A stretch of 6,550 nt of DNA from a bacterium (GTDB taxonomy: Bacteria > ARS69): NCBI GenBank assembly GCA_025774865.1, contig JALGZO010000674.1:1-6550 (forward strand), in the 5' to 3' direction. Below are positions 2 through 6,550 of this stretch, piece by piece. A program made the translations under genes and the position numbers. The notes under the pieces are model-generated. The model was not told where the DNA came from. It saw only the letters and a list, made by a program, of their open reading frames with translations, and did not search any database. The first letter of the stretch is position 1. Each line of letters starts with the position of its first letter.

Positions 2-511
2 CAGGTCTGGCTGGAAAGCCCGGCCGAGTTCGTGACCTACATGGACGTCGATCTCTCGACGAATCTCCGCGCGTTTCCCGAGATGGTGCAACGTCTCCAG
101 AACGGCAGCGACGTCGTGATAGGGTCGCGCCTCATGAAGGGTGCGGACACGACGCGGAGCTTGAAACGTGAGATCCTTTCGCGCGGGTACAACTTGCTCG
201 TCCGTCTCTTCTTCGGGACGAGGTTCTCGGACGCGCAGTGCGGGTTCAAGGGCGTGCGGCGCGAAGTGGTCGAACGCCTGGTCCCGCACGTAGAGGATCG
301 CAAGTGGTTCTTCGATACGGAGCTCCTGGTGCTTGCCGAGAAGTCCGGCCACGCCATCGGCGAAGTTCCGGTCGACTGGATCGAAGACCTCGATACGCGC
401 GTGCGTCTCGTTCGTACCATTTACGACGATCTCGTCGGGCTCTTCCGCCTCCGCGGCAACCTTTCCGGAGTGCTGAGGCGTATCGATGATCCGGGCCGCC
501 CACGCTCCTGA
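2..511 (+). CDS. GT2 glycosyltransferase, dolichyl-phosphate-sugar synthase type (5'-truncated)
   Basis: The reading frame is open from base 2 and begins before the window, so only the last 169 residues are seen. They contain the DxD-type motif of GT2 enzymes in YMDVDLST (bases 38-61), then the DVVIGSR strand, a basic stretch, SDAQCGFKG and WFFDTELL. This order is typical of the dolichol-phosphate mannose/glucose synthase branch (DPM1/GtrB-like). Family members transfer a sugar from a nucleotide donor to polyprenyl phosphate at the cytoplasmic face of the membrane. There is no membrane segment in the visible C-terminus, so this looks like a short DPM1-like form rather than one with a GtrB-type membrane tail. 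The stop (509-511) lies 26 bp inside the next gene, a putative polytopic glycosyltransferase that would be a natural user of the lipid-linked sugar. The sugar specificity cannot be read from the sequence. Confidence 0.9.
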   Translation, partial: QVWLESPAEFVTYMDVDLSTNLRAFPEMVQRLQNGSDVVIGSRLMKGADTTRSLKREILSRGYNLLVRLFFGTRFSDAQCGFKGVRREVVERLVPHVEDRKWFFDTELLVLAEKSGHAIGEVPVDWIEDLDTRVRLVRTIYDDLVGLFRLRGNLSGVLRRIDDPGRPRS

Positions 512-2495
512 CGGTAGCGGGGCGGGCACCCTTCGCGCCGCTCTGGTCGCGTTTCTTCCCCTCGCGCTCGCCGCTGCCCTCACGTGGGTCGCCGGGTCCG
601 GCGATGCCACGTCGTTCGACGACACCGTTCTTCTGCCGCCCGACGACATTTCTATGGGGAGATTCTTCCTCGCACTGATTGTGCTCGCCTTCGGTTACTT
701 CGGCGTCTACTTCGCGCCGGGGCTTCTCCTGATGCGGGCGCTCGGCTGGCGCGTCGGCAATCCGGTCGGGAATGCGGTCGCGGCGTTCGTGCTGTCGCTC
801 TTCGGCGGATCTCTGGCCTGGATCGGCGCTCAGGCCGTCACCGACGGATTGGCGGGACGGACTTGTCTGTACCTCACGATCGCGTCACTCGACGCGGCGG
901 CACTCCTGGCGGCCGTGTTCCTCGCGCGAGGCGCGCCCGCGCTTCCGACGTTGCCGGCAGAGGCGCGAGGCCGCGGCCGGCGAGAACTCGTGGTGCCGAT
1001 GCTCGGCGTCCTCTTCGTCCTGGTCGCGGGAGCTTTCCTGATGCCGGGCAAGATCACGACGGAGGCTCTCGAGGGCGACGCCACCGAGGTGAACGGCTTC
1101 GCCGCGAGCCTCTTCGATCGGGCGCTGCCGTACTGGGATCTCGAGTCGGGAGTCTGGGGCTTCTACCCGACGTTCATGTTCGTCGCGTACCCGGTCTTCT
1201 TTTCGCTCGCACTCCTCGGGCAGAGCGAGGCCGCCGTCCGACTACCGGCGCTCCTCTTTCTCGGAGTGTTGGCGCTCGCGACCGCCGATCTCGCCGCTCG
1301 TGGCCGCACGCGCGCCGCCGCCGACTCCTTCGCCGTGCTCGTCCCCGTGCTGGTCGCGGCCTACTTGTCGATGCAGGTGGGTGCGTACTACGCCGGCTAC
1401 CACCCGTTTCACGGTGACCTCGCATGCTCGCCGCTCGAGGAGTGGATGGTGACGGCGCTCGCGATGTGCGCGGTGGTGCTCGTCCGCGACGGCGCGCCGG
1501 GCCTCGCCGCGGTGGCGGCCCTCTTGTCCATCCTCACGTTTCCGAGCGGGCTGATGGTGGTGGGGTTTCTCGGAGTCGCCGGGTTCGTGACGGCCACGAA
1601 CGCGGAGGAACGCTGGACCGTGTTTCGATGGGGGACCGGACTCGCAGCGTTGCTCGGGGGATGGGCCGCGTTCTTGCTGGTCTACACGCTGGCGCAGGGG
1701 ACGTTCGGTCCGATGATCGGAGAGTGGTACGCGAAGTACTTCCAGGGCCGGGCGAGCTTCGGCGGAGAGAACCCGGAGCGCATCGTTCGTGCGCTCGGTT
1801 GGTACACGCTGCTCGCCGGAGGCCTCCCGGTGGTCGGGCTCGTCGTGGCCATCTGGCGGGGCGATCGCGTGGGGCGCTGGCTCGCGCTGGCCGGCGGCGC
1901 CTGGGTGGCGTTCTTCCTCTTCTCGCCGGCGAAGAACATTCACTACTTCATGCCGGCCGCGCTGTTGCCGGTCGCGACCGCACTCCGGACGACCACCTCC
2001 GAGCGCAAGCCCCGGTCGTCGCTCGCCGTCGCCGGTCTGCTCTCGGTGTCCGCGATCGTCTGCGTCATGCTCTGCCGTCCGCAGTCGGTTCCCCCGTACA
2101 CCGCCGACCGCGAGTTCGGGCGTCGTACGGTCTTCCTCGCGGGCACGGTGCGCCAGGCGGTCGACTACTCGAAGGTCATCTTCAACCTGACCGAGCCTCT
2201 CTGGCGGTGGCGACCGGGCTCGCCCTGGACGGTGGGGCACCACACGTGGGTTCTGTACGCCGATCGCGGCTTCGACCTCGACCGCGAGTACGACTTCTAC
2301 ATCGGGGAAGGGCCGACACCGGCGCCCGGTCTCGAGGAAGTGACGCGGATCTCGGTGCCGGGAGGCGGATCGGCGGCGCTGTGGGCGCGGGGGGGGCGGG
2401 CCGCGATCCGGGAGTGGAAGGCGAAGACGTTTCCTCTTCGGAAGGAACTGAGCCGCTTCAACTTCGATATGGCTCTCTCGGAGCCGGCGCCATGA
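486..2495 (+). CDS. Polytopic membrane protein, putative GT-C type glycosyltransferase
   Basis: This 669-residue protein has about 14 hydrophobic segments, roughly at residues 16-37, 59-85, 93-118, 126-147, 168-186, 227-245, 252-270, 281-297, 338-370 (probably two), 383-402, 437-457, 464-481, 486-500 and 511-530. A soluble C-terminal region of about 135 residues follows. The loop at 195-228 carries acidic residues (GDATE, then ALPYWDLESG) and leads into a P-rich helix start (YPTFMFVAYP). That arrangement resembles the acidic extracytoplasmic loop of GT-C enzymes that use polyprenyl-phosphate sugars. I infer GT-C activity from this and from the upstream GT2 gene; no family-specific signature was recognised. 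The ATG at 486 is chosen because GAGG at 475-478 sits 7 nt upstream. The stop overlaps the next start as ATGA (2492-2495). A run of eight G at 2389-2396 lies within codons for WARGGRA. An O-antigen ligase-like protein or an uncharacterised membrane protein is possible. Confidence 0.7.
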   Translation: MIRAAHAPDGSGAGTLRAALVAFLPLALAAALTWVAGSGDATSFDDTVLLPPDDISMGRFFLALIVLAFGYFGVYFAPGLLLMRALGWRVGNPVGNAVAAFVLSLFGGSLAWIGAQAVTDGLAGRTCLYLTIASLDAAALLAAVFLARGAPALPTLPAEARGRGRRELVVPMLGVLFVLVAGAFLMPGKITTEALEGDATEVNGFAASLFDRALPYWDLESGVWGFYPTFMFVAYPVFFSLALLGQSEAAVRLPALLFLGVLALATADLAARGRTRAAADSFAVLVPVLVAAYLSMQVGAYYAGYHPFHGDLACSPLEEWMVTALAMCAVVLVRDGAPGLAAVAALLSILTFPSGLMVVGFLGVAGFVTATNAEERWTVFRWGTGLAALLGGWAAFLLVYTLAQGTFGPMIGEWYAKYFQGRASFGGENPERIVRALGWYTLLAGGLPVVGLVVAIWRGDRVGRWLALAGGAWVAFFLFSPAKNIHYFMPAALLPVATALRTTTSERKPRSSLAVAGLLSVSAIVCVMLCRPQSVPPYTADREFGRRTVFLAGTVRQAVDYSKVIFNLTEPLWRWRPGSPWTVGHHTWVLYADRGFDLDREYDFYIGEGPTPAPGLEEVTRISVPGGGSAALWARGGRAAIREWKAKTFPLRKELSRFNFDMALSEPAP

Positions 2496-2941
2496 GGATC
2501 TTCGGCTCGCTCATCATCGTCGCGGTGCTGCTGGCCGAGGCAACCGCCGCCGCCTCGGGGTCCACGTACCACCCGACCCCGCTGCTCAAGGCGTATCACG
2601 GACTGCACAAGGCCCGGCTCCGCGAGGACGGCTGGGAGGATTTCGTTCGCCAGTTCGACCTGATCCTGGTCTTTCCACCCGTGCCCGCGAAGCAGCTCGC
2701 GGCGGTTCGAGCCGTCCATCCGGCCGTGATTCTCCTCGCGTACACGAACTGCCGGTCTCTCCCGTACCAGCGTTATCCGGCCGATTACTGGGCGCGGCTC
2801 GACGCGCTTCTCCCGGCCGAGATGCGGGTCCGGAACCCGGGGAGCGGGGATCTGGTCCACGATCCGCACGGCGCGAGCTACTTCGTCATGACGCAGGCCG
2901 TCGCGGAATCTCTCGTGGTATTGCACCGCGCTTCACGATGA
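2492..2941 (+). CDS. Secreted glycoside-hydrolase-like (GHL15-like) protein, N-terminal half of a split gene
   Basis: The 149 residues open with a signal peptide (hydrophobic core about 5-15, likely cleavage in the ATAAA-SG region near residue 21). Alternating strands and helices follow, as in the first part of a TIM barrel: LLKAYHG, FDLILVFP, VILLAYTN, then a segment ending VHDPHG. The pattern resembles the hypothetical glycosyl hydrolase family 15 (GHL15) or related GH114/TM1410-like proteins, recognised by general pattern only. The start ATG overlaps the previous stop (ATGA) and has GGAG at 2480-2483, 8 nt upstream. The frame stops at 2939-2941 just after a helix-like stretch (QAVAESLVVLHRAS), exactly where the next strand should follow. 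That strand is present in the -1 frame (next entry). The half alone is too short to be a complete barrel, so this is probably a frameshifted gene or a sequencing error. Confidence 0.6.
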   Translation: MRIFGSLIIVAVLLAEATAAASGSTYHPTPLLKAYHGLHKARLREDGWEDFVRQFDLILVFPPVPAKQLAAVRAVHPAVILLAYTNCRSLPYQRYPADYWARLDALLPAEMRVRNPGSGDLVHDPHGASYFVMTQAVAESLVVLHRASR

Positions 2942-3405
2942 CGTGGCAATGGGACGGTATCTTTCTCGACAATTGCACGCCGACGATTCCCGGGCACATC
3001 CTGAAGGCGATCACGTTGCAGACGGAGGAGTTCGATTTCGACAACGACGGGGTGCTCGACACCGTGGAGGATGCGCAGCGGTCCTACGAAACATGGCGCC
3101 CCTACTTCACGCGAAGGCTCCGAGAAGAGCTCGGCGACGGCGTCATCCTGATCGCGAACAGCGGCGGCGTCCTCGACGACCCGCAGCTCAATGGAATCTC
3201 TCTGGAGGCGATCGGAACCCTCTGGACGGAAGAGGAAGCGACCGACATTCTGGAGCGCCAAAGGGCGGTCGGCCGGAGCCCCTGGCTCGGCATCGGCTGG
3301 GTGGAGAACGCCACCGACATCGATCCGACGAGCTCCCTCGCGCGCCGGCTCGACGGCGTGTACTACGGAGTGAAGCGGCAATTCCCGCTCCCGCCCCCCC
3401 GATGA
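2938..3405 (+). CDS. Glycoside-hydrolase-like (GHL15-like) protein, C-terminal half of a split gene
   Basis: The 155 residues begin MTWQWDGIFLDN. The DG-IF-LDN strand is a hallmark of GHL15/GH114-type barrels, with its acidic residues at the expected catalytic end. A calcium-loop-like DFDNDGVLD (residues 33-41) follows, then a WRPYFTRRLREELG helix, an ILIANSGG strand, LNGISLEAIG, and the end of the barrel. The apparent start ATG (2938-2940) overlaps the preceding stop as ATGA. No convincing Shine-Dalgarno precedes it, and there is no signal peptide, so it would not be secreted alone. Joined to the N-terminal half by adding one base near 2935-2940, it gives a secreted protein of about 304 residues, a normal size for a single TIM barrel. 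Translational coupling of two natural subunits is possible but less likely. A C7 run (3394-3400) lies just before the stop. The substrate is unknown; a surface glycan is inferred from the neighbouring genes. Confidence 0.65.
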   Translation: MTWQWDGIFLDNCTPTIPGHILKAITLQTEEFDFDNDGVLDTVEDAQRSYETWRPYFTRRLREELGDGVILIANSGGVLDDPQLNGISLEAIGTLWTEEEATDILERQRAVGRSPWLGIGWVENATDIDPTSSLARRLDGVYYGVKRQFPLPPPR

Positions 3406-3477
3406 GTTCTCACTTCACCCTGAAGCGGACGAATTCGAGCCGCCGGTGTGAAAAGTTCGTAAGGGTATCCACTTATA

Positions 3478-3507
3478 TGAAGATTCGACCCCTGATTGTG
3501 CTAGCCT
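3478..3507 (+). promoter_or_regulatory. Weak sigma-70-like promoter candidate upstream of murI
   Basis: In an AT-richer patch of the intergenic gap there is an extended -10-like TGC-TAGCCT, with the hexamer at 3502-3507. A poor -35-like TGAAGA (3478-3483) lies 18 bp upstream. Only about half the consensus bases match in each box. It is the best candidate in a gap that must start a new transcript or carry the old one through. If used, transcription would begin near 3514, at the left arm of the first hairpin. Confidence 0.25.
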
Positions 3508-3538
3508 TCGATTCCGGTGTCCGAGCACCGGATCAGGG
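3490..3538 (+). promoter_or_regulatory. Nested inverted repeats before murI (first structured element)
   Basis: A perfect 7-bp hairpin is formed by 3513-3519 and 3526-3532 (TCCGGTG / CACCGGA, 6-nt loop). Around it, CCCTGAT at 3490-3496 is the exact complement of ATCAGGG at 3532-3538, giving an outer stem that shares base 3532 with the inner one. Bases 3535-3538 are also the start of the left arm of the larger hairpin at 3535-3584, so the outer stem and that hairpin cannot both form completely. This is what the sequence shows; a regulatory role is inference. No known riboswitch class was recognised. Confidence 0.4.
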
Positions 3539-3584
3539 CGAGAGACACGGCAACTGGTGCAGGCACCTGGTCGTCTCTCGCCCT
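3535..3584 (+). promoter_or_regulatory. 12-bp perfect inverted repeat before murI (leader hairpin or terminator-like)
   Basis: AGGGCGAGAGAC (3535-3546) is exactly complementary to GTCTCTCGCCCT (3573-3584). The stem encloses 26 nt that contain a small GGTG-CAGG-CACC hairpin (about 3556-3567). A 12-bp perfect match is well beyond chance for this short gap. No U-rich tract follows (ATCCTTTACCC), so it is a poor classical intrinsic terminator. It lies between two gene blocks and 71 bp before the murI start, so it could end the upstream transcript, act as an RNA leader structure, or be a protein-binding palindrome. I cannot decide among these. Confidence 0.5.
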
Positions 3585-3655
3585 ATCCTTTACCCTCCCC
3601 GCGTGACCCGGCCCGTTTCTCTTCCGTCAATTCCATCCACTCGGGTGCTGCCGGT

Positions 3656-4492
3656 GTGATTGCCGAGAAACGGGATTTGCCGCTCGGCATCTTCGATTCC
3701 GGGGTCGGCGGGCTCACGGTCCTGCGAGCGCTCAGGGACGAGCTTCCGTCCGAGTCCTTCGTGTACCTGGGGGACACGGCCCGCCTGCCTTACGGCACCA
3801 AGAGTCCCGCGACCGTGACGCGCTACGCCCGGCAGGCCGCGACGGCGCTCGCCGAGCGAGGCATCAAGCTCCTGGTGGTTGCTTGTAACACGGCGTCGGC
3901 ACTCGCGCTGGACGAGCTTCGCGAGCAATTCCGGAATCTGTCCGTGGTCGGGGTGGTGCGGCCGGGAGCGGAAGCGGCGGCGGCCGCCTCCGTGACCGGG
4001 CGCATCGCGGTCATCTCGACCGAGAGTACGGCGGCCCACGGAGCGTACGATCGGGAAATCCGGAGGGTGCGGCCGGAGGCGCACGTCGCGAGCCGCGGGT
4101 GTCCTCTGTTCGTCGCGCTCGCGGAAGAAGGCTGGACGAGCGGGGCAATCGCCGAGGCCGTCGCGAAGGAATACCTGGCCGATCTCTTCGGCCGGACCCG
4201 AGAAGATGGTCGGCCCGATTGCCTCGTCCTCGGCTGCACGCACTTTCCGCCACTGCGCGAGACGATCCGGCAGGTCGTCGGCGCGGACGTTCAGCTCGTC
4301 GACTCGGCCGCGACGACGGCGGCGGTCGTGCGGGTCGAGCTCGAGAGAACCGGCCTCCTCGCCGGGCCGGACGCCACGCCGCGCACGCAGCTGCTGGCGA
4401 CCGACGCTCCGGAGCGCTTCGCCCGCGTGGCCGCCCGGTTCCTTCCCTCCGACTTCATCCCGGACGAGGTCGAGCTCGTCGACCTTTCGTGA
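3656..4492 (+). CDS. murI: Glutamate racemase
   Basis: This cytoplasmic enzyme interconverts L- and D-glutamate and supplies D-glutamate for peptidoglycan precursor synthesis. From the GTG at 3656 the protein has 278 residues, normal for MurI. All hallmarks are present: IFDSGVGGLTVL (D14, S15), YLGDTARLPYGTKS (37-50), the first catalytic cysteine in VACNTAS (C77), a TxxT-type region (121-131), CPLFVALAEEGW (149-160), and the second catalytic cysteine in LGCTHFP (C194). The upstream reading frame is open to a GTG at 3557, but that lies inside the inverted repeat and would add 33 residues not expected in the family. GTG 3656 is therefore preferred, although its Shine-Dalgarno is poor. The stop overlaps the next start as GTGA (4489-4492). 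I see no frameshift or missing key residue. Confidence 0.96.
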   Translation: MIAEKRDLPLGIFDSGVGGLTVLRALRDELPSESFVYLGDTARLPYGTKSPATVTRYARQAATALAERGIKLLVVACNTASALALDELREQFRNLSVVGVVRPGAEAAAAASVTGRIAVISTESTAAHGAYDREIRRVRPEAHVASRGCPLFVALAEEGWTSGAIAEAVAKEYLADLFGRTREDGRPDCLVLGCTHFPPLRETIRQVVGADVQLVDSAATTAAVVRVELERTGLLAGPDATPRTQLLATDAPERFARVAARFLPSDFIPDEVELVDLS

Positions 4493-5104
4493 ATCACCTC
4501 GCGCACGCTCTCGTCGCCGAGCGGGCCGGCGGCTCGATCGTCGGGAACCTGATGGGGGACTTCGTCAAGGGCCGCCCCGAGGACCGGTACGGCGGCGCCC
4601 TCCTCGCCGGCATCCGATTGCACCGGCGGGTCGACGCCTTCGCGGACGAGAACGAAGTGTTCGCCCGCAGCCGCACCCGGATCCTCCCTCCCCTGCGTCG
4701 CTACGATCCTCCCGCCGCTGCGCCGCTACGCCGGCATCCTCGTCGACATCTTCTACGATCACTTTCTCGCGAAACGATGGACGGAGTTCGCGGACCGACC
4801 GTTGCGGGATTTCGCCGACGCGGTGTACGAGGAGCTGCGAACCGCGCACGATGCGCTGCCGCCCCGGATGACCGGGTTCGTGTCGTACATGATCGACACC
4901 GATCTGCTCGTCGCGTACCGCGAGAGGGAAGGGATCGCCCGGGCCTTCGCCGGGATGTCGCGGCGGATGCGGCACGAGAATCCGCTGGACCAGGCGATCC
5001 GAGAGCTGGACCGCGAGTACGAGGCGCTGGAGAGCGATTTCCTCGAGTTCTTTCCGCAGCTCCTGGCCGCCGTTGACTCCGGCGAAATCCGCCGACTAGC
5101 CTGA
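4489..5104 (+). pseudogene. acpH: Acyl-carrier-protein phosphodiesterase (AcpH/DUF479 family), frame broken by a 25-bp duplication
   Basis: AcpH removes the 4'-phosphopantetheine arm from holo-ACP. The N-terminal part (GTG at 4489) reads VNHLAHALVAE, then GNLMGDFVKGR (D24), then GIRLHRRVDAF (H45-R46-R47, D49), which matches the start of E. coli AcpH in order and spacing. After ILPPLRRY (4681-4704) the frame becomes meaningless and would run to a stop near 5076. The true continuation, RYAGILVDIFYDHFLAKRW to FPQLLAAVDSGEIRRLA (stop 5102-5104), is in the +1 frame. It follows a second copy of the same 25 bp. Removing one copy restores a 196-residue protein, close to the 193 residues of the E. coli enzyme, with the segment between HRR and DHF at about the expected length. 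The start overlaps murI (GTGA), so translation is probably coupled. As written, the gene cannot make full-length AcpH. True inactivation and assembly error are both possible. Confidence 0.85.
4681..4730 (+). repeat. 25-bp imperfect tandem duplication inside acpH
   Basis: Copy 1 is 4681-4705 and copy 2 is 4706-4730, directly adjacent and matching at 22 of 25 positions. The differences are at repeat positions 9 (t/g), 12 (c/g) and 18 (t/c). All three are third codon positions, so both copies encode ILPPLRRY. The unit is 8 codons plus 1 base, which shifts the frame by +1. Confidence 0.95.
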
Positions 5105-5125: not shown

Positions 5126-5806
5126 ATGCTCGAAGGTCGCGACCAGGCGCTCATCGACTACTACTCGAGACGCGCGCACGAGTACGACCGGATCTACGAG
5201 CGCCCGGAGCGGCAGGCGGATCTGGCGGAGCTCCGGCGGACCGTGGTCGGGTGGCTGCGCGGCCGTCGCGTACTGGAGATCGCGTGCGGAACCGGATACT
5301 GGACCGAGGTGCTCGCACCGGTGGTGAGCTCCCTCGTCGCGACCGACGCGAGCGCCGGCGTGCTGGAGGTCGCTCGATCACGACTCGCTTCCTCGTCGGA
5401 TCCGCCCATCTTCCGAGAAGCCGACGCCTTCGATCTCGCCTCCGTCCCCGGCGACTTCGACGCCGTCGCTGCGGGCTTCTGGCTGTCGCACTTGGCCCGC
5501 GCCGAGATCCCGCGTTGGCGGGACGCGTTGCACGAGCGACTCGGCGCGGGCGCGCGGGTCGTCCTCTTCGACAACCGTTTCGCGGAGGGCAGCAGCTCTC
5601 CGATCTCGCGGTGGGACGAGAGCGGAGACTCGTTTCAAGTGCGCCGCCTCGAGAGCGGCGAGGAGCACGAGGTCCGCAAGAACTTCTTCGAAGAGCCCGA
5701 GCTGCAACAGCGGTTCTCGCCGGGCGCGACCGAGCTCCTCGTTCACGAGTCGACGTACTACTGGGCCGTCCGGTACGTGATCGCGGCCCCGAGTTCGACC
5801 GCATGA
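5126..5806 (+). CDS. Class I SAM-dependent methyltransferase
   Basis: A 226-residue soluble protein with the Rossmann-type SAM-binding core. Motif I is VLEIACGTGYW (49-59). The acidic residue ending strand 2 is D73 in VATDAS. Motif III is close to READAFDL (96-103), and motif IV is FDAVAAGFWLSHL (110-122). A RVVLFDNRF strand follows. The N-terminal YYSRRAHEYDRIY segment is common in small-molecule methyltransferases of the UbiE/Methyltransf_11-25 type. The substrate cannot be inferred. No DNA- or RNA-specific signature (NPPY or similar) is seen, so a small molecule or lipid is more likely. Start ATG 5126 is supported by a strong AAGGAGG. The stop overlaps the next start as ATGA (5803-5806), which couples it to the asparaginase-like gene. 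Confidence 0.9.
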   Translation: MLEGRDQALIDYYSRRAHEYDRIYERPERQADLAELRRTVVGWLRGRRVLEIACGTGYWTEVLAPVVSSLVATDASAGVLEVARSRLASSSDPPIFREADAFDLASVPGDFDAVAAGFWLSHLARAEIPRWRDALHERLGAGARVVLFDNRFAEGSSSPISRWDESGDSFQVRRLESGEEHEVRKNFFEEPELQQRFSPGATELLVHESTYYWAVRYVIAAPSSTA

Positions 5807-6318
5807 AGATCCAGTTCATTACGACGGGCGGGACGATCGACAAAGTCTACTTCGACGATCGGAGCGAGTACGAGGTGGGCGTGTCCCAGATCCGCGAGAT
5901 TCTGAGGGGTGCGAGCGTCGCGATCGACTACGACGTTCGGGAGGTGCTGCAGAAAGACAGCCTGCACCTCACCGACGAGGATCGCCGCCTCGTCCGAGCC
6001 GCGGTGGAAGAGAGCGTGCCGAACCGGGTCGTCGTGACGCACGGCACCGACACGATGGTCGAGACGGCTCAGGCGTTGAAGCGGATTCCGGGCAAGGTGA
6101 TCGTTCTCACCGGCTCTCTGATTCCCGCCCGATTCAAGCACACCGATGCCGAGTTCAACGTCGCGGTCGCGGTCGCGGCGGTGCAGTGCCTCGACCCCGG
6201 TATCTACATCGCGATGAACGGGCGGATCTTCTCGCCGGACAACGTGCGGAAGAACCGCGAACGGAACTGCTTCGAAGAGATCGAACCCGACCGGAGCGCT
6301 ACCGGTGAAGAGCCTTGA
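5803..6318 (+). CDS. Single-domain asparaginase-like protein
   Basis: The 171-residue protein carries the N-terminal asparaginase/glutaminase domain. It has ITTGGTIDK with the nucleophile Thr11, the DSLHLTDED substrate-binding segment (S53), the second catalytic motif VTHGTDTM (T82-D83), and LTGSLIPARF with K112 where the family keeps a catalytic lysine. The N-terminal domain then appears complete (IYIAMNGRIFSPDNVRKNRERNCFE) and the gene stops. Classical type I/II L-asparaginases have about 330 residues with a C-terminal domain, absent here. Short stand-alone forms of this size are annotated in many bacteria, so this is probably natural rather than truncated; their substrate is poorly known. 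No signal peptide is seen, so it is cytoplasmic. The ATG overlaps the methyltransferase stop (ATGA) and lacks a good ribosome-binding site, which suggests translational coupling. The reading frame is open far upstream, but that part only shadows the methyltransferase. Confidence 0.9.
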   Translation: MKIQFITTGGTIDKVYFDDRSEYEVGVSQIREILRGASVAIDYDVREVLQKDSLHLTDEDRRLVRAAVEESVPNRVVVTHGTDTMVETAQALKRIPGKVIVLTGSLIPARFKHTDAEFNVAVAVAAVQCLDPGIYIAMNGRIFSPDNVRKNRERNCFEEIEPDRSATGEEP

Positions 6319-6438
6319 TCGACGTCCAGCTAGTGTCCTCCACCGGGACCGGACCGCAGTTCACTCCCACGTAGGTACAATCGAACCAGAGCTGCGCGTC
6401 GCACACGCCGTTCCGGCGCGGCGAGCGGCCCCAGATCC
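6299..6438 (-). pseudogene. Protein-like stretch with no start, possible frameshifted end of the right-edge gene
   Basis: On the minus strand, from about 6438 down to a TAG at 6299-6301, one frame reads like real protein: GIWGRSPRRNGV, then CDAQLWFDCTYVGVNCGPVP, then TSWTSIKALHR. It has three W, three C and several Y/F, which is unusual for antisense of GC-rich DNA, and G/C-rich third positions. It has no usable ATG, and upstream of about 6438 the same frame loses its codon bias. It begins just where the neighbouring minus-strand frame stops and is offset by -1 from it, so it may be that gene's true C-terminus after a single missing base. It overlaps the 3' end of the asparaginase-like gene by 20 bp. 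I recognise no family. Confidence 0.35.
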
Positions 6439-6550
6439 CTACTGCGACGCCCCCGGCACCTCCTCCTTCTTCTCCGTCGTCATCGGTGGCTCGTCGCCGA
6501 GGAGGTACCGCTCCCAGAACATGGACACGGCATAGGACATCTGGTCACGG
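6439..6550 (-). CDS. C-terminal end of an unidentified convergent gene (partial)
   Basis: The minus strand is open from the window edge to a TAG at 6439-6441, giving about 35 residues: RDQMSYAVSMFWERYLLGD followed by a charged tail ending EVPGASQ. Third codon positions are nearly all G or C, which supports real coding. The fragment is too short to assign; an enzyme-like helix (FWERYLLG) is visible but not diagnostic. The gene is convergent with the murI-to-asparaginase block. Its true end may lie in the other frame (previous entry). Confidence 0.5.
   Translation of the reverse strand, partial: RDQMSYAVSMFWERYLLGDEPPMTTEKKEEVPGASQ

Follow-up and report, generated by a model that had tools for sequence, protein, structure and literature searches.

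The acpH locus and its tandem duplication

The window, that is the whole stretch of DNA analysed here, corresponds to the entire contig C678 (6550 bp). It is one of the 785 contigs of a 4.72-Mb assembly, for which completeness is 92.65% and contamination 8.3%. The features considered are as follows.

3656..4492, forward strand: murI, glutamate racemase, upstream of acpH (TIGR00067, 222.7 bits against a cut-off of 146.65)
4489..4704, forward strand: acpH-like gene, 5' part (PF04336 profile positions 1-72, 75.9 bits; 68% identical to the homologue in the same-family genome G002)
4681..4705, forward strand: copy 1 of the duplication, ATCCTCCCTCCCCTGCGTCGCTACG, encoding ILPPLRRY plus one G; right end of a putative seed contig (1-4705)
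4706..4730, forward strand: copy 2 of the duplication, ATCCTCCCGCCGCTGCGCCGCTACG; left end of a putative second contig (4706-6550, 1845 bp)
4706..5104, forward strand: acpH-like gene, 3' part, shifted by one base (PF04336 profile positions 67-183, 135.9 bits; 59% identical to the G002 homologue)
5126..5806, forward strand: methyltransferase (PF13649), downstream of acpH
6437..6550, forward strand: 114 bases identical to positions 3810-3923 (reverse strand) of contig C8; probable branch overlap of a de Bruijn graph

The two acpH parts jointly cover the whole profile of AcpH, acyl carrier protein phosphodiesterase (PF04336, ACP_PD). Both exceed its gathering score (27 bits), and they overlap on the profile only around the repeat. 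Neither reached the cut-off of NCBIfam PRK10045, which is to be expected when a distant relative is present only as two halves. The difference from a usual AcpH is that the gene is split in the record: one open frame extends from 4489 into copy 1 and another, in +1, from copy 2 to 5104, but a single uninterrupted frame is absent, with a one-base shift at 4704-4706.

The duplication described in the original prediction was fully recovered by recomputation, and the pair was also detected by Tandem Repeats Finder. The two copies of the 25-bp unit are identical at 22 of 25 positions. Their mismatches, at unit positions 9, 12 and 18 (CCT/CCG, CCC/CCG and CGT/CGC), all fall on third codon positions and are synonymous, so that each copy encodes ILPPLRRY in its own frame, copy 2 being one base (+1) out of frame with copy 1. 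As had been pointed out, a G follows the TAC codon in both copies. Since a G also precedes copy 1, the boundary of the duplication can be placed at either 4704 or 4705. We rejected a chance origin of the repeat: tandem pairs of 20-60 bp with at least 85% identity appeared in none of 300 dinucleotide shuffles.

The earlier argument relied on the divergence being synonymous only. Indeed, all three differences are synonymous, but the weight of this pattern is limited: three random substitutions in the 25-bp unit were computed to leave ILPPLRRY unchanged 3.0% of the time. Taken on its own, the pattern is therefore suggestive rather than decisive.

Comparison with related acpH genes

Related acpH genes had been proposed as a check, and they contain one unit and never two. 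A single full-length PF04336 match, spanning profile positions 2-183 of 183 without stops, was found in each of the same-family genomes G001, G002 and G004. Identity to the N-terminal part of the window acpH is 68% for G002, 65% for G004 and 54% for G001; for the C-terminal part, the values are 59%, 52% and 49%, respectively. A further 77 loci contain both AcpH halves. On these, the two copies project to the same start in 68 cases, to starts separated by 3 nt in 8 and by 9 nt in the last one. A second unit, which would give an offset of 24-25 nt, was thus found in none of these 77 loci and in none of the three same-family genomes.

This result bears directly on the less likely route mentioned in the original prediction, namely an old duplication of 24 bp in frame, followed by synonymous divergence and then by a one-base insertion. 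Such a history would account for a divergence that is synonymous only, and a near-exact tandem repeat of 36 bp does occur in C7, a contig of the same assembly in its expected list position (see below). With no second unit in the homologues, it was rejected as the main reading and is now very improbable. Moreover, it leaves unexplained why the boundary lies where a contig end is predicted.

The murI-acpH order is also found in G001 and G002, and in G001 a similar methyltransferase follows shortly after acpH, as in the window. Because this order is common to G001 and the window, the two pieces of the window are probably adjacent in the genome. Gene order thus suggests that the join itself is correct.

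Contig list order and the predicted seam

We sampled 140 contigs of the assembly, with readable letters for the larger ones and lengths only for those under about 3 kb. In the assembly list, series of contigs of decreasing length are interleaved, and some entries, called over-long here, exceed the length expected at their place. From these lengths we derived a list-order rule, which assumes that an out-of-order contig holds the place of its seed contig. Near C678, the in-order lengths are 4752, 4752 and 4748 bp (C673-C675), then 4703 and 4697 bp (C681, C682), C676-C680 being out of order. List order therefore predicts a seed of 4703-4748 bp for C678, and the end of copy 1 (4704/4705) falls inside this range.

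Two other contigs displayed the same behavior. C144 (3424 bp) is listed between contigs of 3068 bp (C142) and 3044 bp (C146), and carries an exact 33-bp tandem duplication whose first copy ends at 3059. This duplication preserves the frame, and LDTLLNFDPMY is encoded twice. C680 (4943 bp), listed between contigs of 4748 and 4703 bp, carries an exact 32-bp tandem duplication at 4672-4735, with copy 1 ending at 4703. It interrupts a reverse-strand, glycosyltransferase-like gene, with KKRPIERLFA occurring in both frames and, in one of them, close to the end. This gene is falsely broken, giving the same picture as acpH but with identical copies. In C678, C144 and C680, the duplication boundary coincides with the contig end predicted from list order; a random position would fall inside the predicted range with a probability of 0.7%, 0.7% and 0.9%, respectively.

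Among readable contigs, 5 of the 23 over-long ones and 1 of the 66 in-order ones contained a two-copy duplication that was at least 20 bp long and at least 88% identical (Fisher p=0.004). The two classes were assigned by hand, and the multi-copy repeats of C358 and C676 were set aside. As a control, 920 kb of other genomes gave 15 hits, none of which was a two-copy, frame-breaking duplication as judged from the listed periods. Exact duplications were also found in the over-long contigs C5 (54 bp) and C310 (29 bp), neither of which fits the prediction for a single join. The 29-bp duplication of C310 (4864-4921), a length that is not a multiple of 3, lies beside a short membrane-protein-like frame. 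It is probably another seam, although its place in the list does not fit a single join. Most over-long contigs are without duplication, indicating that unmerged-overlap joins are not the only kind of join in this assembly.

Graph overlap at the right end of the window

The 114 bases at the right end of the window are shared with C8, an over-long contig (4384 bp) listed after a contig of 3923 bp. Beyond its base 3923, C8 differs from the window. The end of the C8 seed is thus located where list order predicts it. C151 and C659 likewise have exactly 114 end bases in common. Overlaps of this length are what a k-mer of 115 would give. A published setup, in which IDBA-UD was run with maxk 115 and a binning cut-off of 2000 bp (PMC9258230), fits the assembly without identifying it. 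In C8, the 114-base overlap is present only once. Full graph overlaps were therefore apparently merged, while overlaps of 25-33 bases were left in place. The shared segment appears to be the end of an S9-type peptidase gene, for which the two contigs provide different continuations; a branch at this peptidase-like gene end hints at mixed strains in the bin.

Origin of the duplication

The 25-bp duplication is almost certainly false and was created where scaffolding appended two contigs with an unmerged overlap. The assembly breakpoint proposed earlier is thus strongly supported, both by the end of copy 1 lying in the predicted seed range and by the same signature in sibling contigs. Assembly would have given two contigs, one of about 4705 bp with copy 1 at its right end and one of about 1845 bp with copy 2 at its left end, and these ends would overlap by 25 bases of a single genomic site. 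Such an overlap, which is far below the graph k-mer overlap of 114 bases and contains three mismatches, would not have been merged. The pieces would then have been appended end to end, probably on read-pair evidence. As 25 bases do not make a whole number of codons, the AcpH frame seems to be interrupted. We judge the frame shift at 4704-4706 to be an artefact. In the organism, acpH is probably intact.

The three synonymous mismatches probably represent two strains' versions of the same overlap. The proposal that the copies are alleles of two strains is therefore likely rather than proven: it agrees with the synonymous differences and with the branching of the graph at the right end of the window, but sequencing error at thinly covered ends might give the same result. 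A search for a second allele, or for another contig with the acpH region, found none; the left part of the window had no match other than itself and a piece of 34 bp located elsewhere, and for the right part the only matches were itself and the 114 bases of C8. G+C content is 67.5% and 66.1% on the two sides of the seam, so that composition neither supports nor excludes different sources.

The same seam could also have formed within one strain, with the three differences being sequencing errors at thinly covered contig ends. We consider this version unlikely, though it is the best placed of the alternatives. The duplications of C144, C680, C310 and C5 are exact, whereas that of C678 has three mismatches; strain differences are thus unnecessary for such seams to arise. 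However, random errors would all be synonymous in only 3.0% of cases, and the right-end branch, with its alternative contexts for one gene end, fits mixed strains.

A real 25-bp duplication inactivating acpH in the organism is as improbable as the old in-frame duplication. The gene is not universal, as the profile search gave no PF04336 match in G003, which belongs to the same family, but the copies have diverged by 12% while both halves of the gene are otherwise open and well conserved, and the boundary lies at a predicted contig end. More improbable still is a reversible 25-bp switch, in which some members of the population would truly have the double unit and slippage would turn acpH off and on.

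An unmerged overlap of this kind resembles the false homotype duplication described at contig boundaries by the Vertebrate Genomes Project (PMC8081667, Extended Data Fig. 5b), in which overlapping ends of two contigs stay unmerged and a tandem duplication results from scaffolding. Those cases come from long-read vertebrate assemblies, are about one read length long and have a gap between the copies, whereas the present one is 25 bp long, without a gap, in a fragmented metagenome-style assembly. The retention of two allelic versions of one site is also reminiscent of false heterotype duplication (PMC8081667, PMC9516828); there, however, the versions are two parental haplotypes, while here the alleles would come from co-occurring strains. 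Our literature search gave no direct account of short tandem duplications where metagenome scaffolds are joined.

The significance of these results is one of data quality only. At least two other contigs of the assembly have an unmerged overlap of the same kind at a predicted seam, which in one case falsely breaks a gene as well. Claims of pseudogenes or gene loss from such assemblies should therefore be checked at short tandem duplications. Moreover, lists of descending length can expose scaffold seams without reads.

Other genes of the window

Downstream of the methyltransferase, positions 5803-6318 hold a short asparaginase-domain gene (171 aa) with only the N-terminal PF00710 domain, which may be a single-domain form or may have been cut short. 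Upstream of murI, a gene at 2492-3405, possibly glycoside-hydrolase-like and without a Pfam match, is divided over two reading frames, with the break at about 2929-2935. It resembles a conserved protein of same-family genomes, and its homologues in G002, G003 and G004 pass the split point in one frame. As this site has no tandem duplication, the contig contains a second frame break of a different kind.
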